Below, in pieces: positions 1,252 through 53,885 of a DNA stretch of 64,000 bases (the stretch's first letter is position 1; each line of letters opens with the position of its first letter). The notes beneath the pieces were generated by a model that was not told the origin of the DNA, ran no database searches, and saw only the letters and a list, made by a program, of their open reading frames with translations. The DNA comes from Pseudomonadota bacterium (GTDB taxonomy: Bacteria > Pseudomonadota > Alphaproteobacteria > Acetobacterales > Acetobacteraceae). The stretch covers positions 1-64,000 of the forward strand of contig JAJZFB010000081.1 in assembly GCA_021805545.1 (NCBI GenBank). The letters run 5' to 3'. The position numbers were made by a program, and so were the translations under genes.

Positions 1252-3372
1252 TTGAGTAGCACCATTACCGGCACAGTCACCGCGCTCATAACCCCCGGTA
1301 GCGGGGGGTATGCGGCCAGCCTGACCATCAGCCAAACTGGTGCCGCCCTGGGTACGCCAACCGCGGTTGCAGCCTTGAACTTGGGCGCCGATGTGACGAA
1401 TTTCGGGCAGATCGGCGGCGAAGTCTTTCTGTATCTCGATAGCACGCTTAACAATTTTGGCGATGTCAGCAGCAGCACAACCGGCGTGCTTGCCGACAGC
1501 AACGGCACTGTTGCAAATAGCGGCACAATTATTGGCGGAACGGTTGGCGTCGCGCTCAACAGCGCCGGCAGCGCCGTCAACTCAGGCCTGGTTCAGGGCG
1601 GCAATATTGGGCTGTATGCGAATTCCGGCGGGTATGTGCTGAATACTGGTACTATTCTGCAAGCAAATTTCACGAGTGGCTTCCAGCAGTTGGGGATGTA
1701 TCTGAAGGGAGCGGCTCTCAACAACACTGGCGTCATATCCGGTTTGTACGGCCTGCAGGTACAAAACAGCAGCGTCGTGAACAGCGGCACAATCGAGGGG
1801 CAAAGTGCCGCCATCATCGCCCTCGGCGGCAGCGGCATACTCCTTAATACCGGAAAAATCACCAGCAGCCGCGAGGCCATTTATACTTCCGGCGTAGCCG
1901 TCAACAATGCTGGTACAATCAACGCGCTTGTCTACGGTATAAAGGCCACGGGCCAGGAACAGATTATCAATTCTGGCAGCCTTTATGGAAACAATCGCGC
2001 CATCAGCCTGCGGGACGGCGGAGCCATAATCAATTCCGGTACAATAGATGGCAGCCAAGACGCCATACTGAACACAAATACCAGCCTCGGCCTTACCCTT
2101 ACGGCCGAATCAGGAGCCAAATTCATCGGCTTGGTACAAGATTCTAGCGGCCTGGGCGAGCTAATCTTGGGGAGCTCGGGCACGGGCACCAGCACCCTCA
2201 ACATGGGCGGCAACTTCAGCGGCTTCTCGCAAATTTCTTTTAGCGCCAACTCAACATGGACGCTGGAGGGCAACGTCCAGGAACTTGCCAGCGGCCAGAC
2301 CATCAGCGGTTTCAACCAGAGTGACAAGATCGTCCTGACTGGTTTTTCCACAAGCTCGGAAACATTTATCAGCGGCACCGGGCTTATTCTGTCTAACGGC
2401 ACGAGCAATGAAACCGTGGATATAGCCGGAAGTTTTTCGGCTTATATACCAAGCGTTACGACCATCGCGGGTAATCGCGTGATCGATCTGGCCCCCGCCC
2501 CATGCTTCTGCGCCGGCACGCGCATCGCCACGGCGCGCGGCAATGTGCCTGTGGAAAAGCTGCGCGCGGGCGATTTGGTGAAAACCGCAACACAAGGGTT
2601 TCAGCCCATACTCTGGATTGGCCGCCGCGGCTATGATGGGCGCATGATTACCGGTAACCATCTCGCCCTGCCGGTAAAAATCCGCCGCCATGCTTTTGCG
2701 CGTAACGTGCCATCGCGTGACCTTTATCTTTCGCCCGATCATTCCTTGTGCGAGGGCGGTGTGCTGGCGCATGCGTGGCGCTTCATCAATGGCGTGTCAA
2801 TCACGCAGGCGCAGAATGCCGCGGTGGTTGAATATTACAATATCGAACTGGAAAACCATGCGGTGATTTTTGCTGAAAATACGCCCGTGGAAAGCTATCT
2901 CGACACCGGATGCCGCAACCGTTTCCAGAATGCGCACACCGCCCCTGCCCGCGCCGCCACCACACAGGCACCATGCCTGCCACGGGTGGAGGATGGTTAT
3001 TATTTAGCCAGGCTGCAAGCGCGCATCAATGCGCGCGCAGGCATTGTTTGCCCCCAGGCCAGCAACGGGCCATTACGGGGAAATATCGACACGGTTGGAC
3101 TAGCATTGAGCGGCTGGGCGCAGGATGAAGCCGCGCCGGAGGCGGCGGTGGAACTGGAACTGCACGGCAACGGGCGAATTCTGGCCCGTTTTCTCGCCAA
3201 CCGCTACCGGGCCGATCTGCGGCGCGCCGGGCTTGGCTCCGGCTGCCATGCGTTTCAGCTAACACCGCCGCCATGGCAAGGGGCCATAACAATACGGCGC
3301 GCAGCTGATGGCGCTGTGCTCGGCGGTTCAGGACTGGATTGCCGCCAGCCGCGCCAGAAAACCGCCGCGTGA
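1252..3372 (+). CDS. Beta-repeat protein with Hint (hedgehog/intein-type) domain
   Basis: This is a 706-residue protein. Residues about 30-275 are degenerate repeats built on N-(S/A/T)-G-T-I and N-T-G-x-I, typical of right-handed beta-helix surface proteins. Residues 418-560 form a Hint_2-type domain: it starts CFCAGTRIATARG, contains VEKLRAGDLV and LSPDHSLC, and ends ENTPVESYLDTG. Residues about 605-700 form a small beta domain (LSGWAQDEAAPEA, then NRYRADLRRAG). TTG at 1252 is the only start after an in-frame stop at 1222 and has AGAGG upstream. There is no signal peptide or membrane segment, so export by a leaderless route such as type I secretion is possible but unproven. The Hint domain may process the protein autocatalytically; no intein partner half is visible. 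Confidence 0.85.
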   Translation: MSSTITGTVTALITPGSGGYAASLTISQTGAALGTPTAVAALNLGADVTNFGQIGGEVFLYLDSTLNNFGDVSSSTTGVLADSNGTVANSGTIIGGTVGVALNSAGSAVNSGLVQGGNIGLYANSGGYVLNTGTILQANFTSGFQQLGMYLKGAALNNTGVISGLYGLQVQNSSVVNSGTIEGQSAAIIALGGSGILLNTGKITSSREAIYTSGVAVNNAGTINALVYGIKATGQEQIINSGSLYGNNRAISLRDGGAIINSGTIDGSQDAILNTNTSLGLTLTAESGAKFIGLVQDSSGLGELILGSSGTGTSTLNMGGNFSGFSQISFSANSTWTLEGNVQELASGQTISGFNQSDKIVLTGFSTSSETFISGTGLILSNGTSNETVDIAGSFSAYIPSVTTIAGNRVIDLAPAPCFCAGTRIATARGNVPVEKLRAGDLVKTATQGFQPILWIGRRGYDGRMITGNHLALPVKIRRHAFARNVPSRDLYLSPDHSLCEGGVLAHAWRFINGVSITQAQNAAVVEYYNIELENHAVIFAENTPVESYLDTGCRNRFQNAHTAPARAATTQAPCLPRVEDGYYLARLQARINARAGIVCPQASNGPLRGNIDTVGLALSGWAQDEAAPEAAVELELHGNGRILARFLANRYRADLRRAGLGSGCHAFQLTPPPWQGAITIRRAADGAVLGGSGLDCRQPRQKTAA

Positions 3373-3387
3373 TCGCCGCGCGGCGAT
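3372..3387. other. Perfect 16-bp palindrome between convergent genes
   Basis: ATCGCCGCGCGGCGAT begins at the last base of the Hint gene stop codon and is its own reverse complement. It lies between two convergent genes, where a terminator is expected, but neither side has a T-tract. It may slow or terminate transcription, or it may be chance in GC-rich DNA. Confidence 0.3.
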
Positions 3388-3438
3388 GAGTGGCGGTGGC
3401 CTTGTCCACGCACCACCCATGTGGCTTAACCGCAAGGC

Positions 3439-4875
3439 CTACAAACTGGCCTGAGACACGAACTTGGTCACCAAATAAGGCTCAAGCCCTTCTGCGCCAC
3501 CTTCAGAGCCATAGCCGCTATCCTTCAAGCCGCCAAACGGCGTCTCGGTAAGGGCCAGGCCATGGTGGTTAATACCCACCATACCGGCTTCAATGGCTGC
3601 GCCCACTGCGGTAGCCGTGGTGTTGCTGCTGGTAAAAGCATAGGCGGCCAAGCCATATTCCAGCCGGTTGGCTTCCGCCACAGCTTCATCAAACGTGCTG
3701 AATGGCAGTATCAGCGCGAGCGGGCCAAACGGTTCCTCATGCAGCACGCGGGCATTGGCGGGAATGTCGGTCAGCACCGTGGGCTGAAAGAAATAGCCGT
3801 TATTGCCGGCGCGCTGCCCACCCGTGCGCAGCTTGGCACCCTTACCCACCGCATCGGCCACAAAACTTTCCATGGCGGCCACACGGCGGCCATTGGCCAG
3901 CGGCCCCATGGTGGTGCCATCGGCCTGCCCGTCGCCCAGTTTCAGGGCTTCCGCCTTGGCCACGAATTTCCGCACAAACGGCTCATACACCCCGTCTTGT
4001 ACCAGCAAGCGCGTGGGGGCGATGCACACCTGCCCGGCATTGCGGAATTTGTTGGCGGCCAGCACATTCACCGCCACGTCCAAATCGGCATCGTTAAACA
4101 CCAGCGCGGGGGCATGGCCGCCCAGCTCCATCGTCACGCGCTTCATGTGCAACCCCGCGAGCGCGGCCAGGTGCTTGCCAACGGCGGTGGAGCCGGTGAA
4201 CGAGATTTTGCGTACCACAGGATGCGGAATGAGGTATTCCGAGATTTCCGCGGGCACGCCAAACACAAGCTGCACCACGCCCGCGGGGATTCCCGCATCC
4301 ACATAGGCGCGCACCAGTTCGGCACAGGCAGCCGGGGTTTCTTCCGGCCCTTTCAAAATAAACGAGCACCCGGCGGCAAGTGCTGCGGAAATTTTGCGCA
4401 CCGCCTGGCTCATGGGGAAATTCCAGGGCGTGAACCCCGCCACAACACCAACAGGCTCGCGGAGCGAAAGCTGGTACACACCCGGGCTACGCGCCGGAAT
4501 AACGCGGCCATAGGCCCGGCGGCCTTCCTCGGCAAACCACTCGATAACATCGGCGGACCCGGCAATCTCGGCACGCGACTCGGCCAGCGGCTTGCCCTGT
4601 TCCATGGTCAGCAGCCGGGCAATATCCTCGGCGCGCGCGCGTAGCATTTCCGCTGCCTTGCGCAGCAGCTTGCTGCGCTCATAGGCCGGCATTTTGCGCC
4701 ACACGGCAAAGCCCTTGGCCGCATGGTCCAGCGCCTCGTCCAAATCTTCCCTCGAGGCATGGGCGAGCTTGCCAATCACCTCCTCGGTGGCGGGGTTGAC
4801 AACATCGATTGTCCGCCCGCCTGTTGCCGCGCGCCATTTGCCGCCAACATGCAGCAACACATCTTTATACATCAT
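3439..4875 (-). CDS. NAD(P)-dependent semialdehyde dehydrogenase (GabD-like)
   Basis: The 478-residue protein belongs to the aldehyde dehydrogenase superfamily and most resembles succinate-semialdehyde dehydrogenases. Visible motifs are FTPWNFP (148-154), FTGST, the general base Glu250 in MELGGHAP and the nucleophile Cys284 in FRNAGQVC. Two adjacent ATGs (4875 and 4872) follow AAGGA at 4-7 bases; a longer frame from a TTG at 4920 would overlap the upstream gene and lacks such a site. It lies seven bases after the aminotransferase gene, so the pair probably converts an omega-amino acid to a semialdehyde and then to an acid, as in GABA or beta-alanine breakdown. The exact substrate cannot be read from the sequence. 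Confidence 0.85.
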   Translation of the reverse strand: MMYKDVLLHVGGKWRAATGGRTIDVVNPATEEVIGKLAHASREDLDEALDHAAKGFAVWRKMPAYERSKLLRKAAEMLRARAEDIARLLTMEQGKPLAESRAEIAGSADVIEWFAEEGRRAYGRVIPARSPGVYQLSLREPVGVVAGFTPWNFPMSQAVRKISAALAAGCSFILKGPEETPAACAELVRAYVDAGIPAGVVQLVFGVPAEISEYLIPHPVVRKISFTGSTAVGKHLAALAGLHMKRVTMELGGHAPALVFNDADLDVAVNVLAANKFRNAGQVCIAPTRLLVQDGVYEPFVRKFVAKAEALKLGDGQADGTTMGPLANGRRVAAMESFVADAVGKGAKLRTGGQRAGNNGYFFQPTVLTDIPANARVLHEEPFGPLALILPFSTFDEAVAEANRLEYGLAAYAFTSSNTTATAVGAAIEAGMVGINHHGLALTETPFGGLKDSGYGSEGGAEGLEPYLVTKFVSQASL

Positions 4876-28736: not shown

Positions 28737-29549
28737 ATGCCCGTCATTTCCCGTTTTGCCCCCAGCCCCACCGGCTATCTGCATCTGGGCCACGCCTATT
28801 CGGCGTGGATGGCCTGGCGCCGCGCGGATGTTTTCCGCCTGCGGCTGGAGGATATAGACCGCACGCGCTGCCGCCCGGAATATTACCCCGGTATTGAGGA
28901 AGATTTGCACTGGCTGGGGCTAAGCTGGCAGGGCGAGGTGCGTGTGCAGTCGGCACACATGGCCGATTATGCCGCCGCCCTGGCCAAATTGCAGGCGCGC
29001 GGCCTGCTATACCCCTGCTTTTGCACCCGTGCCGATATTGCCCGCGCCGCCACCGCCCCGCATGGGCCGGAAAGCATTTACCCTGGCACTTGCCGGCATC
29101 TTTCCAGCTCGGCGCGGCAGGCCCGGATAATTGCGGGCACGCCCTACGCGCTGCGGCTGAGTATCGCCAAAGCCCGGGCTGAAACCGGGACTTTGCGTTT
29201 TTTCGAAGAAAATACCGGCTGGACCGAAGCGCAGCCGGAACGGCTGGGAGACGTGGTGCTGGCCCGCAAGGACACACCAGCCAGCTACCATCTTTGTGTT
29301 GTACATGATGACGCGCTGCAAGGCATCACCCATGTCATACGCGGCGAGGATCTGCGCGAGGCCACGCATGTTCATGTGCTCCTGCAAAATCTGCTGGGCC
29401 TGCCAACCCCCATTTACGCGCACCACAAATTGCTGCGCGGGCCAGATGGCAACCGCCTGGCAAAGCGCAGCAACAGCGCCACATTGCGGGCATGGCGCGC
29501 CGCTGGTGTCAGCGCTGCAAACATTCTTAACAATTTCGAGGAAGCATGA
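28737..29549 (+). CDS. gluQRS: Glutamyl-Q tRNA(Asp) synthetase
   Basis: The 270-residue protein is a truncated glutamyl-tRNA synthetase paralogue lacking an anticodon-binding domain. It starts RFAPSPTGYLHLGHAYSA (HIGH motif as HLGH) and has RLEDIDRTRCRP, a Cys/His zinc site around YPCFCTRADI and CRH, HVIRGEDL, and the KMSKS-like RLAKR. It attaches glutamate to queuosine in tRNA-Asp. ATG 28737 is chosen by family N-terminus. The stop overlaps the CPBP gene (ATGA). Confidence 0.92.
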   Translation: MPVISRFAPSPTGYLHLGHAYSAWMAWRRADVFRLRLEDIDRTRCRPEYYPGIEEDLHWLGLSWQGEVRVQSAHMADYAAALAKLQARGLLYPCFCTRADIARAATAPHGPESIYPGTCRHLSSSARQARIIAGTPYALRLSIAKARAETGTLRFFEENTGWTEAQPERLGDVVLARKDTPASYHLCVVHDDALQGITHVIRGEDLREATHVHVLLQNLLGLPTPIYAHHKLLRGPDGNRLAKRSNSATLRAWRAAGVSAANILNNFEEA

Positions 29550-30508
29550 AAAAAATCCTCTGGGCACTGCTCTGGTTCCTCGCTTTCGCGCTCGCGGGTT
29601 GCGCCGCCATGGCCGGGGCATCCCTGGCCATGCTGCGCCACGCCGTGCCGCCATTCATCTTGCTGCGCCTCGCCGCCTTTGGGGCGGTGCCGGGCATTCA
29701 GCTATGGGTCATTGCCCTGGTATTTGCCGCCCTGCCCGGCGCCCGCCCAGCACCCAGCGCCCAGCGCGGCTTTGGGCTGGCCCAAGGGCTGTGGAGCATG
29801 GCTGGCACCGCCCTGATGATGGGCTGCGGTGCCATGCTTGCCTACGGGGCGGGCATCTACCTGGTGCTGCTGCAGCGCCTTGCCGGCCACCGCCTCGCTT
29901 TTCCTGGCCAGCACAACATCCCGCTGCTCATGGCCTCTCTGCTGGCCAGCGAGCTGCTCGCCGCCTGGTGGCTCATCTGGTATGTGCGCCGCCAAGGCCC
30001 GGCCAGGCTTACCGAAGGCGGTGCTGGCGGCATTGCCTGGCGTCCGGCCCCACCCCGGGCCTATGGCATGGCGGCACTCGGCGCGCTGGCTGTCATGCTG
30101 CTGGTTGGGGCGGAGGCCACGCTCTACCCGCCTGATCTCAGCCAGCTTTCAAACCTCGCCCTGGCACGGCTGCTGCAAGGCCCGGCCATTATCACCCTGC
30201 TTACCGCGTCGGTCATCATTATCATGGCCCCGCTTATCGAGGAGCTGCTGTTCCGCGGCATCGCCTTTGCCGGAATCGCCGCCAGGCTGGGGCCGGGCTG
30301 GGCAACGGCGCTCACCACGCTCGTCTTCACCGCGCTGCATGCGCCGGAGAAAATCCTCTACCCGCCGGGCTTTGCCGATGTTGCCGCCATTGCCCTGCTT
30401 TCCTGCTGGCTGCGGCTGCGCTACCGCTCCATCCGCCCCGGTATGATGATGCATTTTTTGTATAATGGCGGCATGCTGCTGGTGCCACTGCTGGGCGCGG
30501 GCAAATAG
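29546..30508 (+). CDS. CPBP-family intramembrane glutamic protease
   Basis: The 320-residue protein has about eight hydrophobic helices. The CPBP/ABI motifs are EELLFRGIAF (Glu-Glu-x3-Arg), ALTTLVFTALHA and the later HFLYNGG with conserved His and Asn. Family members cleave within membranes or act in CAAX processing. It starts within gluQRS (4-base overlap), so translation is coupled. The role in this organism is unknown. Confidence 0.86.
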   Translation: MKKILWALLWFLAFALAGCAAMAGASLAMLRHAVPPFILLRLAAFGAVPGIQLWVIALVFAALPGARPAPSAQRGFGLAQGLWSMAGTALMMGCGAMLAYGAGIYLVLLQRLAGHRLAFPGQHNIPLLMASLLASELLAAWWLIWYVRRQGPARLTEGGAGGIAWRPAPPRAYGMAALGALAVMLLVGAEATLYPPDLSQLSNLALARLLQGPAIITLLTASVIIIMAPLIEELLFRGIAFAGIAARLGPGWATALTTLVFTALHAPEKILYPPGFADVAAIALLSCWLRLRYRSIRPGMMMHFLYNGGMLLVPLLGAGK

Positions 30509-43130: not shown

Positions 43131-45422
43131 ATGAACGACACACCGCGCAACCCTGGTCTGGGAGACACGGCCGGCCAAACCGCCGCGAACCCGGACATTG
43201 CCGCGCTGAACGATGCGGGCCTTGGGACCAATGCGCAATTGCAGGCCCGGCTGGCGGCGGTAATGTACACGGCCCGGTATCATGGCGTGGAAATAAACCT
43301 GGAGAGCCTGCGGCTGCGCCCGGATGAGCCCGCGCCCTCTCCGCCCGTGCTGGTGGAATGGCTGCGCGAGGCCGGGCTTTGGGCCCGGGGCGTGCCGATG
43401 AATTTCCGCCAGTTGATAAAGGTCGATGATCCCTCGCCCATCGTGCTGCTGCTTAACGATGGCGGCGCGGCGCTGGTGGTGGGACGCAACCGCGAGACAC
43501 AGACACTTCTGTTGCGCGACCCGCGCGCTGGCACCCACGACCCCACCATAGCCGTGGACGAGTTAAGGCTGAAGCAAGTATGGAGCGGTGGCGTGCTGCT
43601 GATCCGCGCCAACCGCGCCGGGGTGGAGGGGGATCCGCCGATTAACCTCGCAATGCTCGCCAAGCTGGTCTGGGGCGACAAAACCATTCTGCGCGACATC
43701 GCCATCGCCTCCATCACCATTACCATTTTATCACTCGTGCCAATCCTTCTGGTCATGCGTACCATCAGCTCGGTAATGCAGTACCGTAGCACCGATACGC
43801 TTGACGTCATCATCGTTGTTCTGTTCACGGCCATTGTCTTCGAGGCGCTCTTAACCTGGGGGCGCAAGACGATGGAGGTCGTCTTGGGCGCCAAACTCGA
43901 CTCTCGGCTGAACCTGATTATCTTCGACCGGTTAATGGCCCTCCCCATCGAGTTTTTTGAACGGCAACGGGCCGGTGAGCTGACCTACAAGGTACAGCAG
44001 GTCAACCGCGTGCGGGAGTTCCTTACCGGCAAATTGATGAACACGTTCATCGACGTGGTCATGCTGGCCATCCTGCTGCCGGTCGTTTTTTTCATCAACG
44101 CCACCCTGGCCTGGACAGTGCTGGTGGCGGCGGCGCTCATCGCCGTCATCATCGCCATCTTCCTGCGCCCCCTGGGCGCGCTCACCGGCAAAATCGTCGA
44201 GGCGGAATCCGGCAAGGGCTCGGTGCTCGTGGAATCGATCGGCGGTATAAAAACAGTGAAGGCGCTGGCGCTGGAACCTGCCCGCAGCGCCGATTGGGAC
44301 CGGCGCGTGGCCCATGTTGCCGAACTGCACATTGAAATAGGCAACATGGCCAACTGGCCGGCCTCTCTCACCCTGCCGCTGCAACGCTACTGCTCTTATG
44401 GCGCGGTCACGCTCGGCGCCTATATCGCCCTGCACAGCAATTCCGCCTTCGATGCAGGCAGCATCGCCGGCTTCATGATGCTGGGCGGGCGCGTTGCCGG
44501 GCCACTCGTCAGCCTGGCCAGCATCATGGAAGATGTGGAGAAAGCCAGAGCCTCGATTCAGCATGTGGCCTGGGTGCTCAACCGCCCCAACGAGAAACAC
44601 GCGCTTACCCACGGGCTACGGCCGCGTTTCGAGGGGGCCATCGAATTCGATGACGTGACATTCCGCTATGAGGGCACAAAAACCCCGGCGCTGGAAAAAA
44701 TGAGCTTCAAAATTCCGGCGGGCACCATGCTTGGGCTGGTTGGGCGCTCAGGCTCTGGTAAATCCACCATCACACGCCTGCTGCAGGGCATCAACCGCGA
44801 CTATGCCGGCTCCATCAAGGTTGACGGCAACGATATGCGCGAGATCAACCTGCGGCATTTGCGCAAGAGTTTTGGCATGGTGCTGCAGGAAAACTTCCTG
44901 TTCCGCGGCTCCATCCGGGAAAATCTCATCGCCGGCCGTCCGGGCCTATCCTTTGAAGACGCGGTGCGCGCCGCGCGCCTTGCCGGCGCCGAGGAATTCA
45001 TCGAGCGCATGCCCAATGGCTACGACACCTTCATCCAGGAAGGCTCACCCAACCTTTCTGGCGGGCAAAGGCAGCGTCTGGCCATCGCCCGCGCCCTGAT
45101 CACCGACCCCAAGGTGCTGATTATGGATGAGGCGACCTCGGCACTGGACCCGGAATCGGAAGCGTTGGTCAATGCCAACATCCAGCGCATCGCCAAGGGG
45201 CGGACGATGGTCATCGTCTCGCACCGCCTGTCCTCGCTGCTCGATTGCGACCTGATCATGGTGCTCGACCGCGGCCGCACGATCGATATCGGCACGCATC
45301 ATGAGCTTGTGGAGCGTTGCGCCATCTACCGCCATCTCTGGTTCCAGCAGAACCGCCACCTCGCTCCCGAAGGCTTTGAGAATGATTCCAAAACTCCGCC
45401 AGCTCTTACCCAAGGCCTCTGA
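43131..45422 (+). CDS. Type I secretion ABC transporter with inactive C39-like domain
   Basis: The 763-residue protein has three parts: a peptidase C39-like domain at about 25-160, six membrane helices at about 175-455, and an ATPase. The ATPase has Walker A GRSGSGKST near 540, signature LSGGQRQRLAIARAL near 641 and Walker B LIMDEATSALDPES near 661. The C39 part has no catalytic Cys (ARLAAVMYTARYHGVEIN) and lacks the His, as in HlyB-type proteins that bind rather than cleave their substrate. It should export a leaderless protein with the adjacent adaptor; a TolC partner is not in the window. A terminator-like hairpin lies in its leader near 43050-43073. Confidence 0.9.
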   Translation: MNDTPRNPGLGDTAGQTAANPDIAALNDAGLGTNAQLQARLAAVMYTARYHGVEINLESLRLRPDEPAPSPPVLVEWLREAGLWARGVPMNFRQLIKVDDPSPIVLLLNDGGAALVVGRNRETQTLLLRDPRAGTHDPTIAVDELRLKQVWSGGVLLIRANRAGVEGDPPINLAMLAKLVWGDKTILRDIAIASITITILSLVPILLVMRTISSVMQYRSTDTLDVIIVVLFTAIVFEALLTWGRKTMEVVLGAKLDSRLNLIIFDRLMALPIEFFERQRAGELTYKVQQVNRVREFLTGKLMNTFIDVVMLAILLPVVFFINATLAWTVLVAAALIAVIIAIFLRPLGALTGKIVEAESGKGSVLVESIGGIKTVKALALEPARSADWDRRVAHVAELHIEIGNMANWPASLTLPLQRYCSYGAVTLGAYIALHSNSAFDAGSIAGFMMLGGRVAGPLVSLASIMEDVEKARASIQHVAWVLNRPNEKHALTHGLRPRFEGAIEFDDVTFRYEGTKTPALEKMSFKIPAGTMLGLVGRSGSGKSTITRLLQGINRDYAGSIKVDGNDMREINLRHLRKSFGMVLQENFLFRGSIRENLIAGRPGLSFEDAVRAARLAGAEEFIERMPNGYDTFIQEGSPNLSGGQRQRLAIARALITDPKVLIMDEATSALDPESEALVNANIQRIAKGRTMVIVSHRLSSLLDCDLIMVLDRGRTIDIGTHHELVERCAIYRHLWFQQNRHLAPEGFENDSKTPPALTQGL

Positions 45423-46803
45423 AAAGGGAGCCCTGGCAAACGCGGCGGACGAACCCATGCCGCTTGCCGTGCTGGAATTTCAGTCGCCGACGGCCGCCGT
45501 CATCGCCACGCCATTGCCGCCAATGGCCCGCTCAACCACGCATATGCTTGCGGGGCTGATCGCCATATTGCTCATCATCGGCTCAACCATGAAGCTGAAC
45601 GAAGAAGTGCCTGGCACGGCGGTACTGACCTCGACAGCACCAGATTTCACGGTCCAGGCTTTCAATTCCAGCTCCATTCTCCGCGAAATCACCGTTGCTC
45701 CCGGCCAGCTTGTGCATAAGGGCGAGGTGGTGGCGCGGCTGGACCCAACTTATGCTGAGGCCGACCTTAAAGGCATGACGGAACAGGAGCAGAATTACGC
45801 CGCCCAGGTGGCGCAGCTACAAGCCCAGGAATACGGCAAGCCCTACGTGCCAGACCCGAACAACCCTTACGGGGCCCTGCAACTGCAAACCTACACCCAG
45901 CAAATGGGCCAGTATAGCTACACGATGCAGAACTACCAGCAGCAGATCAACCAACTGCAAACCCAGATTAACGGCTATAACAGCCAGGCCGCCTATTTCC
46001 GCCAGCGCCTCGGCATCGCCGAGAATGTCGAAAATATGCGCAAGAAGCTGCAGAAGCTGCAAGTAGGCAGCGAGCTGGACACGGAGGCGGCCATCGATGA
46101 CCGCGTTTCCATGCAGGCGCAAATGGAAAATAATATATCGGACGCGGCGGCGGCGGAAAAGCAGCTCGCCGCGACGACCGCGCAGATGAACAGCTTCGCG
46201 CAGCAATTCAAGGCGCAGACCTCGACACAACTGGCCACGGCGCTCAACAATCTGGCCCAGGCACGGCAAAACCTGACCAAAGCCAAAATGAACAGCCAGG
46301 AAATTGACCTGACCGCGCCGCAGGATGCGGTGGTGGAATCCGTGTCTCAGGAATCTCCCGGCGCGGTGCTGCAACCGGGCGAAACCCTCCTTACCCTCTC
46401 CCCCATCCACGCGCCGTTTACTGTGGAGGCGCAAATCAATGCCACCGAGTCCGGCTATGTAAGCGTGGGTAACCGGGTGAATCTGGAATTCCAGACCCTT
46501 CCGCAAACCGTTTATGGCGGCGCCATTGGCACGGTCAAATCGATCTCCGCCAACAGCTTCAACCCGAATGACCAGCAGAATAATGCAACAATCGGCACGC
46601 CGCTGCCCGGAACCGGACAGAATTTATACTACCGGGTCAGCATCTCGCTGGACCAGCTTAACCTGCATAACGTGCCAAGGGGCTTCCAGTTAATGCCGGG
46701 CATGCCCATCAGCGCTAATGTTATTGTCGGCAAACAGACCTTCATGGAATGGCTCTTCAAGAACTACGCTTCAATCGCCACCAAAGCCTTCCATGAGCCC
46801 TGA
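45382..46803 (+). CDS. HlyD-family periplasmic adaptor of the type I secretion system
   Basis: The 473-residue protein has a cytoplasmic start, one membrane helix (LAGLIAILLIIGS, residues about 54-66), and a lipoyl-type strand region (SSILREITVAPGQLVHKGEVVARLDP). A long coiled coil unusually rich in Gln, Tyr and Asn (about 140-330) follows, then a second lipoyl half (APQDAVVESVSQESPGAVLQPGE). The ATG overlaps the ATPase gene by 41 bases and has GAAGG upstream. It bridges the inner-membrane ATPase to an outer-membrane channel. Confidence 0.9.
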   Translation: MIPKLRQLLPKASEKGALANAADEPMPLAVLEFQSPTAAVIATPLPPMARSTTHMLAGLIAILLIIGSTMKLNEEVPGTAVLTSTAPDFTVQAFNSSSILREITVAPGQLVHKGEVVARLDPTYAEADLKGMTEQEQNYAAQVAQLQAQEYGKPYVPDPNNPYGALQLQTYTQQMGQYSYTMQNYQQQINQLQTQINGYNSQAAYFRQRLGIAENVENMRKKLQKLQVGSELDTEAAIDDRVSMQAQMENNISDAAAAEKQLAATTAQMNSFAQQFKAQTSTQLATALNNLAQARQNLTKAKMNSQEIDLTAPQDAVVESVSQESPGAVLQPGETLLTLSPIHAPFTVEAQINATESGYVSVGNRVNLEFQTLPQTVYGGAIGTVKSISANSFNPNDQQNNATIGTPLPGTGQNLYYRVSISLDQLNLHNVPRGFQLMPGMPISANVIVGKQTFMEWLFKNYASIATKAFHEP

Positions 46804-46812
46804 GGCAGCCGC

Positions 46813-48564
46813 ATGAGCGTTAAAGCGAGCATTTCCGACAATCTGGCCGCGCGGAATCCACAAAAGGCGCTTAAACGCGCCCTGACCCTGCAGGCGCAAG
46901 CAGCGCATGAGCGGGCGTTCAAGCTGTTCGTCACCGCCGCCGAGGCCGGGCTGACCGAAGCTGAGCGCGAGCTTGGGTTCTACTACATTACCGGCGAGGG
47001 GCACGGGCTGCTCGACCCGGTACAGGCCGTGCGCTGGATTACCCGCGCAGCCGAAAAAAATGATGTAGCGGCACAGGCAAAGCTGGCCGAGCTTTACCTC
47101 GCGGGCTTCCAGAAAGAGCGCCTGGAGCAGGGTCTGTTCACATCCTCCGAGACAGCGCAGCAGGTGGACGTGGAAACCGCCCTGCACTGGGCGCTGCGCG
47201 CGGCCGAAGCCGGCGATGCAAAAGCCCAGGCCATGGCGGGGTATATCTATGCCAGCGCCCCGCCGCCACTGCGCGATGCGGCCAGGGCCGAGCATTGGTA
47301 CAAGCTGGCGGCGGCGCAAGATGTACCGCAGGCGCATCTCGGCCTTGGCATCAACCTGCTGTTCAACGCAACGGCAGACGAGCCAACTTTTGCCGGCCTG
47401 GCGCACATACGCAAAGCCGCCGAAGCAAATCTGCCCGATGCGCTTTATTATATGGCCGTGATTTATGAGCGCGGCATCGGCGTGCTGCCAGACCAGCAGC
47501 AAGCCGCTGAATTTTACGGCAAAGCCGCCGAGGGTGGGGTCAATAACGCGCGCGCCAAATATGGCCTCATGCTGTTCAATGGCATTGGCGTAAAGCAAAA
47601 CAAGCTAGAGGGCGAAACCTGGCTGCGCCGCGCCGCGCTTGGGGGCGATGGCGAAGCGGCAATTCTCGTCGCCAATATTTACGTGCGCGGCGAAGGCAAT
47701 ATGCCCCCCGCCTTTGCCGAAGCGGCGCAATGGTTCCGCCTTGCCGCCGAAGCCGGCAACAAGGACGCGGCACGCTCCCTGGCCGTGATGCACCTGACTG
47801 GTGCTGGCATGCCGCGCGACGCTGATGAGGCCGCCAGCTGGTTCCGCAAGGCAGCCGAAGCCGGCGATGCAATGGCGCAATCGGACCTGGCCGAGCTGAT
47901 GCGGCTCGGCCGCACCAACCCGCGCTTCACCGAGCCAGCGCCAGTGCACGATTGGTTCGAGAAGGCCGCCGAAGCTGGTGATGCCGTCGCCGCCTATAAT
48001 TTTGGCGTATGCCTGGCCGAGGGCGTGAACCTGGAAAAAGATGAGGTCCGGGCAGTCTATTGGTTCCGCAAGGCGGCCGATACCGTGGCCGACGCCACCT
48101 TCGCCTATGCCATGGCGCTGGAGCAGGGGCGCGGCGTGGAGAAAGACGAAATTGCCGCGCGGGAATGGATGATGCGCGCGGCAGACGCCAAACTGCCTCA
48201 GGCCCTGCTCAATCTGGGACGCATGCATAATCAGGGCATTGGCGGGCCGCGTGATGACGAGGCGGCCCGGCAATGCTTCGAGCAAGCAGCGGCAGCCGGG
48301 CAGGTTGACGCCATGTTCGCGCTTGGCGCGTTTTATGGCGGCGGGCACGGCATCCCCACCGATCGCGCGGCATCTCTGGAATGGTACCGCAAGGCCGCCG
48401 CTGCCGGGCATGCCGGCGCGGCGCTCATGCTGGGTAAATATCTGAGCCTGGGTATCGCCACGCCGGTTGATCTGGACGGAGCGCGGCAATGGTTCGGCCT
48501 TGCCGCCAAGGCAGGCATACCCGGCGCGGCGGAAGAACTGGCCGCGCTGGATGCGGCGGCCTGA
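46813..48564 (+). CDS. Sel1-like repeat protein
   Basis: The 583-residue protein is built almost entirely of about 14 Sel1-like (TPR-related) repeats of 36 residues, e.g. AASWFRKAAEAGDAMAQSDLAELM and YWFRKAADTVADATFAYAMALEQG. No signal peptide or membrane segment is visible. It begins nine bases after the adaptor gene, in the same operon. Such repeats bind proteins, so it may be an assembly or chaperone factor for the secretion or glycosylation machinery. Confidence 0.87.
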   Translation: MSVKASISDNLAARNPQKALKRALTLQAQAAHERAFKLFVTAAEAGLTEAERELGFYYITGEGHGLLDPVQAVRWITRAAEKNDVAAQAKLAELYLAGFQKERLEQGLFTSSETAQQVDVETALHWALRAAEAGDAKAQAMAGYIYASAPPPLRDAARAEHWYKLAAAQDVPQAHLGLGINLLFNATADEPTFAGLAHIRKAAEANLPDALYYMAVIYERGIGVLPDQQQAAEFYGKAAEGGVNNARAKYGLMLFNGIGVKQNKLEGETWLRRAALGGDGEAAILVANIYVRGEGNMPPAFAEAAQWFRLAAEAGNKDAARSLAVMHLTGAGMPRDADEAASWFRKAAEAGDAMAQSDLAELMRLGRTNPRFTEPAPVHDWFEKAAEAGDAVAAYNFGVCLAEGVNLEKDEVRAVYWFRKAADTVADATFAYAMALEQGRGVEKDEIAAREWMMRAADAKLPQALLNLGRMHNQGIGGPRDDEAARQCFEQAAAAGQVDAMFALGAFYGGGHGIPTDRAASLEWYRKAAAAGHAGAALMLGKYLSLGIATPVDLDGARQWFGLAAKAGIPGAAEELAALDAAA

Positions 48565-48633
48565 ACCGCGTGGTCTTGCGGCGGCATGGTGCGCGATGGC
48601 ATGGATTGTAATCCGCAGCAACGATGAGCCGCG

Positions 48634-51381
48634 ATGAAAACAGGGAGTTTGACGCGGCGGCGGCATGATGAGGCGGCGGCCGCCTGGGTAAAGGCGCGCG
48701 AGGACAAGGGCCAGGCATTGCGCTGGTTGATGCGCGCCGCACGCCTGGCGCCGGATGATCCACGCATCGCGCTGGAACTGGCTCAAGCCCAGCTTCAGTC
48801 TGGCGAAGCCGCCGCGGCGGCTGCTGGCTTTGCCCGGCTGAGTAAAGAGCACGACATTGCCGCCATATGGATGGGCTTAGCCCTGGCGAGCCTGCAAACT
48901 GGCGATGGCCCGCAAGCCGTTGCCGCGTTAGAGGCCATGCTACAGCGCCATTGCCTGCCAGATGATCCGGGCTTTTCCAACTTTGCGCTGCTTGTGGCCA
49001 CAGCCAACGGTCATGGCGGATTCCAGGCTGTGCGGCCAGATGGCAGCCTGGTTCTGCGGGGGGCGGGCCACCTGCTGGGCGCCAGGCCCAACCACGGCGC
49101 GCTAACGCGGGTGGAAGGCTTGGTGACTTGGGAAAAGAACGGTTTAAGCGGCTGGGCCGCACACGCCGCAGCGCCAGAGGCACCACCGGATTTATGGCTG
49201 CAAGATACACATGGCGCACGCCGCAAGGTGAAGCTGGGCAAAATTCTGCCACCAGATTCCGCCGCCCCGTTTCTGCCACGCTATAAATTCCGCCTGGGGC
49301 CGGTGCAGTTGCGCGGCCTCACACCACCTTTCCATCTCGGCGGCGCCTCGGGGCCAGAAATTTCCGGCAGCCCGGTTCAGCCCGAGGCCCTTCAGCAAAA
49401 CCTTCAACAAAACCCGCGCCCAGCCAAACGCCGTGGCAAGCCCCCAGCCCGCACCCCACGGCGCGCCAAGCTGGCGCTGCTAATGCCGGTTTACCGTGGC
49501 CTTGCGCAAACCAAGGCGGCACTTACCTCCACCCTGGCCGCCGCGCCAGCAGGCACTAAAATCATCGTAGTGGATGATTGCACCCCTGAGCCCGCCCTGG
49601 CGCGCTGGCTGGACCGGCTGGCGGCGTCAGGCCGCATCATCCTGCACCGGCATGAGCGCAATCTGGGCTTCTGCGCCGCCGTGAATCACGGCATCGCCCT
49701 GGCTAAAAACCACGACGTGCTCCTGTTGAATGCCGACATATTGCTCCCGCGCGGCGTAATTGAGGCGCTGCGCGAGGTTGCCTATGCCGATAAAGCCACG
49801 GGCACCGTCACGCCCTTTTCTAACGAGGCGACACTCTGCTCCTACCCCAGCCGCAAAGGCGGCAACCCGATGCCCGATGCCCGCCAAACGGCCCGGCTGA
49901 ATGCGCTGGCGCGGCAGGCAAACGGGCTGGAAGCCGTGGAAATTCCCACGGCAGTCGGGTTCTGCATGTTCATCCGCCATGATTGCCTGCGCGCCACAGG
50001 CAAGCTCCGGGGTGAAATTTTTGCCCAAGGCTATGGCGAGGAAAATGATTTCTGCCTGCGCGCCCGGCATCTCGGCTTCCGCCACATGGCGGCGCCGGGC
50101 GCGTTTGTGGCGCATCAGGGCGGGGTCTCGTTCCGCGCCGCGGCGCGCGGGTTGATGATTCGCAACCTGCGCATCTTGAATGATTTATTTCCCGGCTATC
50201 TGGCGCTGGTGCAGGCGCACGAGGCAGCAAACCCGCTGGCCCCGTACCGTGCCCGGCTGGATACGGCGCAGCTCCTGGCGCAGCGCGCGCGCAAGGGGGC
50301 GGTGCTGCTCATTTCGCACGGCCATGGCGGCGGTGTGGCCCGGCAGGTGCAGGCCGATATGGCACGCTGGCGCGCGGAAGGTTTCCTGCCCTTGCTGCTC
50401 TCCACCCAATTTCCAGAAAATCCCGATAAAACCCCGTATCCTTGGCCCGCCCAGCTTGGCATGGGCGAGAAAAACACCTGCCCCAACCTTACCTTTACGT
50501 TGCCCGGCACCCTGCCTAACTTACTGGCCCTGCTACGGCAATTAAGCGTGCGCCGCGTGGTGCTGCACCACGGCCTGGGCCACCATGAGAGCGTGCGCGG
50601 CCTCGCCGCGATGCTGGGCGTACCGCAGGATATCGTGGTGCATGACTACGCCAGCTTTTGCCCGCGGGTTAATCTCCTCAACCGGCCAGATAAAACGGCG
50701 CCGCTGCGCTATTGCGGCGAGCCCGCGCTGGCAGGGTGCATCACGTGCTGCAAAATACGCGATGGCGGGGTGCGCGAAACATTGCCCGTGGCACAATTGC
50801 GCGCCCGTTCCGCCGCCGAATTTGCTGCGGCGGAACGGGTTATTGTTCCCTCCGCCGATGCAGCGCGGCGGCTGCAAAGGCATTTTCCCGGGCTTAAGCC
50901 AGTTATAACGCCCTGGGAAGACGACAGCTCGCTGCCCCCGCCCATCCTCGTGCAACGGCATGCCGCGCCGCGCCGCGTGGCGGTCATTGGCGGCATAGGC
51001 CCATCCAAGGGGTTCGATGTGCTGCTGGAATGCGCCACGGATGCCAAGGCGCGGAATTTGCCACTGGAATTCATCGTCATCGGCAATAGCGCGGATGACG
51101 AAAAATTATTGGCGGCCGGCATTTTCGTCACGGGCGCATACCGCGAGGGCGAGGCAACAGCGCTCATCGAGTATTTCAAACCCAGTATTGCCTTTTTACC
51201 TTCCATCTGGCCGGAAACCTGGTGTTTCGCGCTGAGCGAGGCCTGGCGGGCGGGGCTGCGCGCCGTGGTGTTCGGGCTGGGCGCACAGGGCGAGCGCATG
51301 CACGCCACCGGGCGCGGTACGAGCCTGCCCCTTGGTCTGCCACCGCAACGTATTAACGAGTTGCTATGCCGCCTGCCATGA
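48634..51381 (+). CDS. Large multidomain glycosyltransferase (TPR, beta domain, GT2, GT-B)
   Basis: The 915-residue protein is a fusion. Residues 1-130 are TPR-like (ALRWLMRAARLAPDDPRIALELA). Residues about 155-240 form a small beta domain (LSGWAAHAAAPEA) resembling the one in the Hint protein. Residues about 280-510 are a GT2 domain (LALLMPVYRG, VVDDCTPE, LLLNADILLPRG, GYGEENDFCLRAR). Residues about 545-905 are a GT-B region with VAVIGGIGPSKGFDVLLECA and WPETWCFALSEAWRAGL. No membrane segment is seen. It probably adds sugars to a surface polysaccharide or protein; neighbours favour a secreted protein target. Function is inferred. Confidence 0.82.
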   Translation: MKTGSLTRRRHDEAAAAWVKAREDKGQALRWLMRAARLAPDDPRIALELAQAQLQSGEAAAAAAGFARLSKEHDIAAIWMGLALASLQTGDGPQAVAALEAMLQRHCLPDDPGFSNFALLVATANGHGGFQAVRPDGSLVLRGAGHLLGARPNHGALTRVEGLVTWEKNGLSGWAAHAAAPEAPPDLWLQDTHGARRKVKLGKILPPDSAAPFLPRYKFRLGPVQLRGLTPPFHLGGASGPEISGSPVQPEALQQNLQQNPRPAKRRGKPPARTPRRAKLALLMPVYRGLAQTKAALTSTLAAAPAGTKIIVVDDCTPEPALARWLDRLAASGRIILHRHERNLGFCAAVNHGIALAKNHDVLLLNADILLPRGVIEALREVAYADKATGTVTPFSNEATLCSYPSRKGGNPMPDARQTARLNALARQANGLEAVEIPTAVGFCMFIRHDCLRATGKLRGEIFAQGYGEENDFCLRARHLGFRHMAAPGAFVAHQGGVSFRAAARGLMIRNLRILNDLFPGYLALVQAHEAANPLAPYRARLDTAQLLAQRARKGAVLLISHGHGGGVARQVQADMARWRAEGFLPLLLSTQFPENPDKTPYPWPAQLGMGEKNTCPNLTFTLPGTLPNLLALLRQLSVRRVVLHHGLGHHESVRGLAAMLGVPQDIVVHDYASFCPRVNLLNRPDKTAPLRYCGEPALAGCITCCKIRDGGVRETLPVAQLRARSAAEFAAAERVIVPSADAARRLQRHFPGLKPVITPWEDDSSLPPPILVQRHAAPRRVAVIGGIGPSKGFDVLLECATDAKARNLPLEFIVIGNSADDEKLLAAGIFVTGAYREGEATALIEYFKPSIAFLPSIWPETWCFALSEAWRAGLRAVVFGLGAQGERMHATGRGTSLPLGLPPQRINELLCRLP

Positions 51382-51474
51382 CACTACGGTTTTTATAGTA
51401 AACAGGCTCAAAATTATCCTGGGGGACTGGATAAACACCCAGCTTTAAACTAACCCTGTCATAGAAATGATCTG

Positions 51475-51496
51475 GCCGGGAAACCGCTTTCCCGGC
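51475..51496. other. Perfect 9-bp hairpin upstream of the ChW-like gene
   Basis: GCCGGGAAA and TTTCCCGGC flank the loop CCGC in the 149-base gap between the large glycosyltransferase and the ChW-like gene. No T-tract follows. It may be an RNA processing or leader structure that separates expression of the two genes. Confidence 0.45.
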
Positions 51497-51530
51497 TGCG
51501 TGCCACGTCATAACAGCTTTAGGATTCGAC

Positions 51531-52481
51531 ATGCCTGCTCCCGCCCAAGCGCCCGCTTCCACCCAAACAGCGCCCCGGCCCGGTGCTAAACGGGGCGACG
51601 GCCTTGGTATTGGCGCTGTGCCACAGCAGGCACAGCCGCAGGCCCAGGGGGGTATTGCCGGCGCGCAGGTCGATGAGCTGAAGGTCACTGGCCACCTGAT
51701 GACTCTGCCGCCTGGGCTGTTTTGTATTATCAACGAGATCAATCCAGCCGCCTCGCGCAATAATGGCATGCCGGGCGTCCGCATCTCGCCGCCGCCGGTG
51801 GGCGGGCAAAACGTCGAAATCTCGGGCTTTCGCGGCGATGGCTGGCTGAGCGCCGAGGGTGATGCCACGCTGGTGCGCATCCGTGCCAAACCATCGCAGA
51901 TTCTCGTCACCATCTACCAATTGCCCGGCGAGGCATCCTCGGCGCCGCGCCTGCAGGTGCGCCAGTTGCTGGGGCCGGAGGAAATGGCAAACGGCCAGGC
52001 CGCGGCGGCGGCACCAGCTCCCGCGCCTGCCCCGGCTCCCGCCGTGCCGGCCAAAATCAACCTCGTCGCGCATATCCAATCGCGTGGCGATGTGGGCGCC
52101 TCTTTTGGCGAGTGGCTGGGCGAAAGCGGCAGCAATAACTGGATCGAGGGTTTCGCCATCAACGCGCCAGCGGACATCTCTCCCGCCAGCTTCACCTACC
52201 AGGCCGTGCTGGGGCGCGGCTGGCTCAGCCCCTGGGTGGAAGCCGGGCAATATTGCGGCTCGCGCGGCATGGCCCTGCCACTGCTCGGCCTGCGCATCCG
52301 GCTGAGCGGCGAAGCCGCCGAGCAATACGACATCTCCTACGCCGCCAGCTTCGTCGGGGGCGCCAAGGCGGGGCCCGTGGGCAACGATGAAACCTGCGAG
52401 GCCGACACGCTGGCACCACTTGAAGCCATTCAGGTCACCCTCACCCCGCGCGCGCGCAAGGGCGGCCGCGCCAAAAAATAA
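51531..52481 (+). CDS. Protein with ChW-like repeat, unknown function
   Basis: The 316-residue protein starts with a Pro/Ala/Gln-rich segment, then a beta-rich part (KVTGHLMTLPPGLFCIINEI). A Pro/Ala linker lies at about 160-175 and the C-terminal part carries two related segments. The second (FTYQAVLGRGWLSPWVEAG, then GMALPLLGLRIRLSG) follows the clostridial hydrophobic W pattern Y-x-a-h-v-x3-GW-x-W-x-G-x2-G-x9-I-x-L. The first is AHIQSRGDVGASFGEWLG. No signal peptide is visible. It sits between two glycosyltransferases. The ChW call is by pattern only. Confidence 0.6.
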   Translation: MPAPAQAPASTQTAPRPGAKRGDGLGIGAVPQQAQPQAQGGIAGAQVDELKVTGHLMTLPPGLFCIINEINPAASRNNGMPGVRISPPPVGGQNVEISGFRGDGWLSAEGDATLVRIRAKPSQILVTIYQLPGEASSAPRLQVRQLLGPEEMANGQAAAAAPAPAPAPAPAVPAKINLVAHIQSRGDVGASFGEWLGESGSNNWIEGFAINAPADISPASFTYQAVLGRGWLSPWVEAGQYCGSRGMALPLLGLRIRLSGEAAEQYDISYAASFVGGAKAGPVGNDETCEADTLAPLEAIQVTLTPRARKGGRAKK

Positions 52482-52499
52482 GCGGCGGCGGAGCCAAAC

Positions 52500-53885
52500 G
52501 TGAATTTTCTTTTCGTCCACCAGAACTTCCCTGGCCAGTACCTGCACATAATCCGCAGCCTGCTGGCCGATAACGAGGCACGGCCCGGCACGCATGAAAT
52601 CGTGTTCATGACCGAGCCAAACCAGAACCAGATGAATGGCGTGCGTAAGGTGACTTACGCAAAGCCGCCTGAAATGTCGCCCAGCCTGTCATGGGACACG
52701 CGCGAATTCGAAACCGCCTCACGCCGTGCCCAGGCCGCCTATCGCGGTGCGCTGCAAATCAAGGCGCTGGGGTTCCAGCCCGATGTCATTATCGGCCACC
52801 ATGGCTGGGGCGAACTGCTTTATCTGGTCGATGTATTTCCCGGCGTGCCGGTTGTCGGGTATTTCGAGTTCTACTACCGTATCCTTGGCACGGATGTGAA
52901 TTTCGACCCCGAATTCCCGATGGACACAGCGTTGTTCGGCGGCGTGCGCGGCAAAAATTCCACCAACCTGCTGGCGCTGAACCTGGAACAATACGGCCAG
53001 ACGCCGACACGCTGGCAGCACAGCACCTACCCGGAATGGGCCAAAAAGCAAATCCGCATCATCGAGGAAGGTGTCGATCTCGAACAATGCAAGCCCGACC
53101 CAGCGCTGCATAAAAAGCCTCTAACGGTAGGCAAGCTAACCGTTACACCAAAACAGAAACTTGTTACGTATGTGGCGCGTAACCTGGAGCCTTATCGCGG
53201 CTTCCATACCATCATGCGCGCCCTTCCCCGCCTGCTGCGTGAGCGTCCGGATGCCTTGGTCTCGCTGGTGGGCGGAGATAGCGTGAGCTACGGTGTGCCG
53301 CCGCGCCAGGGCGGAACCTGGCGTGAGCTGCTGCTGAAGGAAACTGCCGGCCAGATCGACCTCTCACGCGTGCATTTCATGGGCAAAGTGTCCTACGAGG
53401 AGCATCTGGCGCTGCTGAAGCGCTCCGACGCCCATGTGTACCTCACCTACCCGTTCGTGGCCTCGTGGAGCCTGCGCGAGGCGCTGGCCTGCGGCTGCAT
53501 GGTGGTGGGATCGGATACGCAAACTGTAACGGAATTCGTGCAGCATGAGGTAAATGGGCTGATTACTCCCACGCTGGACCATAACGCGCTAACAGACACC
53601 GTGTTGCGCGCGCTGGCAGACACCAAGCTGGCAGCCAGACTGCGTGCCAATGCCCGCGAATATGCCGAAAAGAAGCTGGGCATGGATGACTATCTGGCCC
53701 GCTACCGCGCCTATATAGAGGAAGTAACGGGCAAAACGCTGCTACCCGCGGGTACGGCAAAGGCCGAGGCAAAAGCCGGGAGCAAGCCAAAAGCCACGGC
53801 ACCTTCCAAACCCAGCATACAGGCAAAAGCCAGCCCAAAAGCGGCGCCAAGGCAAAAACCCCGCGCCAACCCCACAAAAGCGTAA
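52500..53885 (+). CDS. Glycosyltransferase family 4-type protein with Lys/Ala/Pro tail
   Basis: The 461-residue GT-B protein begins MNFLFVHQNFPGQYLHI and has DVIIGHHGWGELLYL, VPVVGYFEFYY, VTYVARNLEPYRGFHTIMRALP, HFMGKVSYEEHLALLKRSD, and the donor-site YLTYPFVASWSLREALACGC. The last 45 residues are a low-complexity Lys/Ala/Pro/Ser tail. The start is GTG with GGAG seven bases upstream. It ends the secretion/glycosylation locus; its stop lies within the first hairpin of a repeat cluster. Confidence 0.87.
   Translation: MNFLFVHQNFPGQYLHIIRSLLADNEARPGTHEIVFMTEPNQNQMNGVRKVTYAKPPEMSPSLSWDTREFETASRRAQAAYRGALQIKALGFQPDVIIGHHGWGELLYLVDVFPGVPVVGYFEFYYRILGTDVNFDPEFPMDTALFGGVRGKNSTNLLALNLEQYGQTPTRWQHSTYPEWAKKQIRIIEEGVDLEQCKPDPALHKKPLTVGKLTVTPKQKLVTYVARNLEPYRGFHTIMRALPRLLRERPDALVSLVGGDSVSYGVPPRQGGTWRELLLKETAGQIDLSRVHFMGKVSYEEHLALLKRSDAHVYLTYPFVASWSLREALACGCMVVGSDTQTVTEFVQHEVNGLITPTLDHNALTDTVLRALADTKLAARLRANAREYAEKKLGMDDYLARYRAYIEEVTGKTLLPAGTAKAEAKAGSKPKATAPSKPSIQAKASPKAAPRQKPRANPTKA

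Follow-up and report, generated by a model that had tools for sequence, protein, structure and literature searches.

ABC exporters that carry a dead C39-like domain (CLD) move large cargo by means of C-terminal signals and are tied to RTX cargo, as has been reviewed (PMC8277102). In the accessory Sec pathway of serine-rich-repeat glycoproteins, glycosylation of adhesins in the cytosol is coupled to a dedicated exporter and accessory proteins (PMC5578698). Among Hint domains, those of the B-type BIL group cleave on their N side (PMC7765530). In this study, we analyzed a six-gene locus of the Acetobacteraceae; full-text searches of the literature on type I secretion, Hint proteins and glycosyltransferases in this family found no description of it.

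Considering all the results below, we favor, at somewhat better than even chances, a model in which the locus encodes a dedicated system for type I secretion that brings its own cytosolic glycosylation and whose main cargo is leaderless Hint_2 proteins, encoded at scattered sites of the genome. Two glycosyltransferases would decorate the Hint_2 cargo in the cytosol with help from the Sel1 and ChW proteins, which would act as scaffolds or in docking. The cargo would then leave the cell through the HlyB-like exporter, the HlyD adaptor and a TolC whose gene lies elsewhere, directed by a C-terminal signal, and the Hint domain would act last, cleaving (or transferring) the passenger off the C-terminal part.

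Organization and Conservation of the Locus

The DNA studied is a window of 64 kb, the whole stretch analyzed, in a genome of 2.79 Mb and 96 contigs. An earlier note on this DNA had described six genes on one strand; all six open reading frames (ORFs) were found, collinear and closely spaced on the + strand, their coordinates as first given were confirmed, and the Pfam families agreed with those first assigned. The first gene (43131..45422, +) encodes a divergent HlyB-type ABC exporter with a C39-like domain, TMD and NBD (Pfam ABC_membrane and ABC_tran, with a weak C39 match). It is followed by the HlyD-family type I adaptor, or membrane fusion protein (45382..46803, +; Pfam HlyD_3 and TIGR01843). 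As printed, the HlyD ORF starts at 45301, with an overlap of 122 bp with the ABC gene; translation more probably starts at the in-frame ATG at 45382. The conserved third gene (46813..48564, +) encodes a Sel1-repeat protein by Pfam, with 9 repeats scored and no evident signal sequence. The fourth product (48634..51381, +) is a glycosyltransferase combining TPR, a beta (“GWA”) domain, GT2 and GT-B (Pfam TPR, GT2 and GT group 1), in which the GWA domain (49111..49392, +) was related by hhalign to the C-terminal domain of many Hint proteins. A ChW-like protein of two beta domains, without an evident signal peptide (51531..52481, +; Pfam ChW and structure prediction), and a GT4 glycosyltransferase of the PF12000 family (52500..53885, +; Pfam PF12000 and GT group 1) complete the locus. 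Most homologues retain the motifs NxD, GEEN and PETWxxxxxE of the GT2 and GT-B sites, as well as the catalytic motifs of the GT4 domain. Elsewhere in the window, positions 29546-30508 encode an Rce1-like protein of the CAAX protease family (PF02517), and the gene immediately before it encodes a short protein with the catalytic domain of Glu/Gln-tRNA synthetase.

A locus with two glycosyltransferase proteins might make or export a polysaccharide or glycolipid, and exopolysaccharide enzymes are among the best NCBIfam matches of the GT4 enzyme, each scoring far under its cut-off. However, the earlier statement that a polysaccharide polymerase is missing from the locus was borne out by Pfam for all six proteins, a flippase and a Wza-type exporter are likewise absent among the six genes, the ABC protein, with its C39-like domain, resembles HlyB, and the adaptor exceeds the cut-off for type I protein secretion. 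We therefore regard such a product as very improbable.

Conservation of the gene neighborhood among relatives had been proposed as a check, and the exporter and glycosyltransferases do co-occur there in fixed order. Among Acetobacteraceae loci of at least 20 kb, the arrangement ABC exporter–HlyD–Sel1–TPR/β/GT2/GT-B–ChW–GT4 on a single strand was found undisturbed in 39/39, drawn from Acidocella, Acidiphilium, Acidisphaera, Rhodovastum, Asaia, Acetobacter and MAGs. It was also intact in 19 of 20 further loci of the family, the twentieth being interrupted by a contig end. Conservation of all six genes rules out chance ORFs. No flanking gene was convincingly conserved outside Acidocella, which argues that the functional unit consists of these six genes. 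With the ChW protein as a tag for the locus, 83 of 120 genomes sampled evenly across the Acetobacteraceae were positive; G069 was scored positive through its locus-type GT4, giving about 84/120 locus-bearing genomes. Elsewhere in the class, ChW relatives were found in only two genomes, inside ORFs of 1197 and 1334 codons, and the locus is nearly absent from the class outside the Acetobacteraceae. Together with the class of the exporter, this conservation forms the strongest part of our case.

The Exporter and Its Adaptor

Residues 41-738 of the ABC exporter align to residues 11-703 of HlyB of E. coli (7sgr; E 1.8e-106). Its best NCBIfam model was TIGR01846 (HlyB; 501.7 bits, cut-off 725.55) and its second-best was TIGR03375 (LssB; 457 bits, cut-off 693); since neither curated cut-off was passed, the protein represents a divergent subfamily. 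The HlyD protein did pass the cut-off for type I adaptors (TIGR01843, 267 bits vs 208.65). It is the only TIGR01843-type adaptor in the genome of the window, as is also the case in G029 and G061, and no type I exporter other than the ABC protein of the locus was found in the genome of the window. The other ABC_membrane proteins of this genome were rejected as type I exporters, being MsbA-, ATM1- or CydDC-like, as was one further such protein, which is SbmA-like and adjoins a Hint gene.

The exporter can also be aligned along its length to PCAT1, an active C39 transporter, as would be expected if the locus exported a peptide with a double-glycine leader (bacteriocin or RiPP). The catalytic Cys of the C39 site is, however, absent in 24 of 24 exporter homologues and the adaptor belongs to the HlyD type I family, so that we give this alternative hardly any weight.

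The earlier note had further stated that TolC and an RTX substrate are lacking. The former statement is correct for the locus; elsewhere in the genome, TolC-like outer-membrane factors (several OEP proteins) are encoded. The latter is true of the whole genome: the RTX family PF00353 (GGxGxDxUx) had no match in the genome of the window (G000), nor in six other locus-bearing genomes. Across the family, RTX matches per genome had a median of 1 with the locus vs 38 without it, and six locus-bearing genomes had at least 20.

Hint_2 Proteins as Candidate Cargo

The genome of the window encodes 14 Hint_2 proteins and one fragment, and up to 24 were found per genome in the Acetobacteraceae sample. One of the 14 lies in the window (1252..3372, +) and is predicted to be cargo; it is a leaderless beta-repeat protein with a Hint_2 domain (2500-2907) and a C-terminal GWA domain (about 3061-3369). 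Co-occurrence of the locus with Hint proteins across genomes, which had been put forward as a further check, was observed: Hint_2 was present in 78/83 genomes with the locus vs 17/36 without it (raw counts, kinship ignored, G000 uncounted), and the median copy number was 5 vs 0, again with kinship ignored.

A leaderless cargo had also been proposed, and a simple test of charge and hydrophobicity, which recognized no signal peptide in 49 Hint ORFs, supports it. A GH5 cellulase without a leader, encoded in the genome of the window (L095 5640-7781) and joined to Hint_2 and a GWA domain, suggests a non-Sec route. Other passengers include AIDA-like repeats (L073) and a subtilase domain; the subtilase-bearing protein (L163:7362-10706) is encoded about 3 kb from a six-gene locus. 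By eye, a stretch resembling HExxHxxGR (AEHELTHALGR) was noticed in another Hint protein (L089:11700-13337), possibly marking a metalloprotease passenger; Pfam matched only Hint_2 in this protein.

The last residue of the Hint proteins was Ala in 29/47 vs 18% expected, an enrichment whose p-value makes it look stronger than it is because the sequences are related, and this terminal Ala spans several different C-terminal architectures. The shared Ala end would suit type I secretion and may act as an export signal at the C-terminus. Another, short class of C-terminus (L073, L097, L098, L100 and L101) has the conserved motif PRxKxxRQ(V/I)P, in the form PRAKSARQVP in several of its members, followed by a predicted helix.

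It is possible that the locus glycosylates and exports one or more other leaderless proteins, and that a common ecology or the history of the lineages lies behind its association with Hint. Five locus-bearing genomes have no Hint_2 match (G017, G041, G043, G049 and G058), and further leaderless repeat proteins exist, such as L068 6148-8802. Hint proteins are also found with other type I systems: 15 of the 17 Hint-bearing genomes without the locus have another type I adaptor, and the remaining two have fragmented or incomplete assemblies. Three near-complete genomes without a type I adaptor (G045, G066 and G097) have no Hint_2 protein. Against another cargo, the Hint proteins of the genome of the window, one of them a cellulase, would be left without any other type I exporter, and the physical links between Hint and glycosyltransferase genes described below speak for a functional connection. 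We thus consider this alternative rather unlikely, and we hold the Hint proteins to be exported cargo of the locus with moderate confidence.

Links Between Hint Proteins and Glycosyltransferases

Hint genes are mostly remote from the locus. They lie near it only in L117 (0.4 kb), L108 and L163 (about 3 kb) and L075 (about 11 kb), and with four loci only, adjacency as a general rule was rejected. In L117, the Hint gene is downstream of the GT4 gene of the locus on the same strand. Three ORFs combine a passenger, a Hint_2 domain, two GWA domains and a C-terminal GT4 region in one chain, with AIDA-like or other repeats (L107:2-4444, L217:68-3169 and L218:3-3290, from genomes G030 and G022); the fusion was confirmed by Pfam in L107 and by similarity to L107 in the other two. 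In L202, a Hint ORF (1923-3965, -) abuts a separate GWA-GT4 gene (283-2352, -), and this pair is a split form of the L107 fusion. A Hint gene abuts a PF12000 GT4 in L068, and GT61-ChW-ChW comes after an AIDA-Hint gene in L073. From these fusions, and from the Hint gene downstream of the locus, we argue for a functional link.

By hhalign, the C-terminal GWA domain carried by many Hint proteins and the beta domain of the TPR/GT2/GT-B glycosyltransferase are related (probability 93.7, E 2e-7), whereas control comparisons with ChW domains gave a probability under 1. G028, a genome with 8 Hint proteins and without the locus, has another type I system, of two ABC proteins and HlyD, whose neighbors are several glycosyltransferases, an ORF with a GWA domain and a PF12000 GT4 (L078:204-14854).

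The ChW protein looks like a cytosolic accessory of the glycosyltransferases. Its structure prediction gave two beta domains (pTM 0.51), for which Foldseek returned no match at E<=0.001; a second structure comparison aligned mainly residues 47-159, with a best Z of 5.8, within the range of common arrangements. The ChW domain has relatives joined to GT61, GT2 and GT90 enzymes, which suggests a cytosolic role beside glycosyltransferases. Large proteins with ChW-like domains and GT61, GT2 or GT90 were seen in L070, L071, L072 and L074, all from Acetobacteraceae. Sel1 repeats are protein-binding solenoids, and the Sel1 protein could serve as a scaffold.

In the favored model, the glycosyltransferases of the locus would place sugar onto the cargo; this is the weakest part of the model. 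Fusions with the glycosyltransferase at the C-terminus fit a C-terminal export signal poorly, and we count them against the model. Cleavage by the Hint domain would follow export; in this domain, Cys1, the SPxH motif and the block-B His are kept, and the C-terminal His-Asn of inteins is absent.

These features also allow a reading akin to Hedgehog, in which the glycosyltransferases would make a glycan or glycolipid, the Hint thioester would be transferred to it to give a C-terminal anchor, and the exporter would move the precursor or the conjugate. The combination of Cys1 and SPxH without His-Asn, as in the N-side-cleaving B-type BIL domains (PMC7765530), agrees with this proposal, as do the three ORFs with GT4 C-terminal to Hint, and the Hint-GT4 fusions would be its single-chain form. 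The acceptor is, however, hypothetical, a sterol-binding region was not noticed, and a fused glycosyltransferase is absent from most Hint proteins; we judge the proposal improbable. That it should extend to a bacterial Hedgehog-like conjugation with RTX-independent type I export for a whole class of surface proteins is likewise a long shot.

Comparison With Known Systems

The outline first proposed for this locus, that of glycosylating and exporting a leaderless protein, is largely upheld by the conservation of the exporter with the glycosyltransferases and by the predicted leaderless Hint cargo. The part that assigned the ChW-like protein to anchoring is not: the protein has no evident signal sequence and the relatives of its domain are part of GT61, GT2 and GT90 proteins, so a surface anchor was rejected. 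If the favored model is true, one conserved locus accounts for the exit of the abundant Hint_2 proteins of the Acetobacteraceae, and HlyB-type secretion reaches beyond RTX cargo, contrary to the correlation of CLD exporters with RTX (PMC8277102).

The locus resembles HlyB/HlyD/TolC systems of the CLD and RTX kind in its dead C39-like exporter, its HlyD adaptor and a predicted cargo that is large and leaderless. It differs from them in an ABC protein below the HlyB and LssB cut-offs, in the absence of RTX cargo from the genome, and in having glycosyltransferases, Sel1 and ChW proteins as permanent partners. To the LapB/LssB exporters of large adhesins it is related through TIGR03375, its second-best and sub-threshold match (457 bits against 693), but the locus holds no LapG/LapD-like partner. 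The predicted cargo shares with B-type BIL and Hint_2 domains the Cys1 and block-B His without the C-terminal His-Asn; the difference is the candidate export route proposed here, none having been found in the literature searched. No SecA2, SecY2 or Asp protein was recognized by Pfam among the six proteins, and the locus is not a member of the accessory Sec family (PMC5578698). If the model holds, however, the two would share the same working principle, and this locus, an ABC/HlyD machine with an unrelated cargo, would be a counterpart of that glycoprotein pathway in Gram-negative bacteria.
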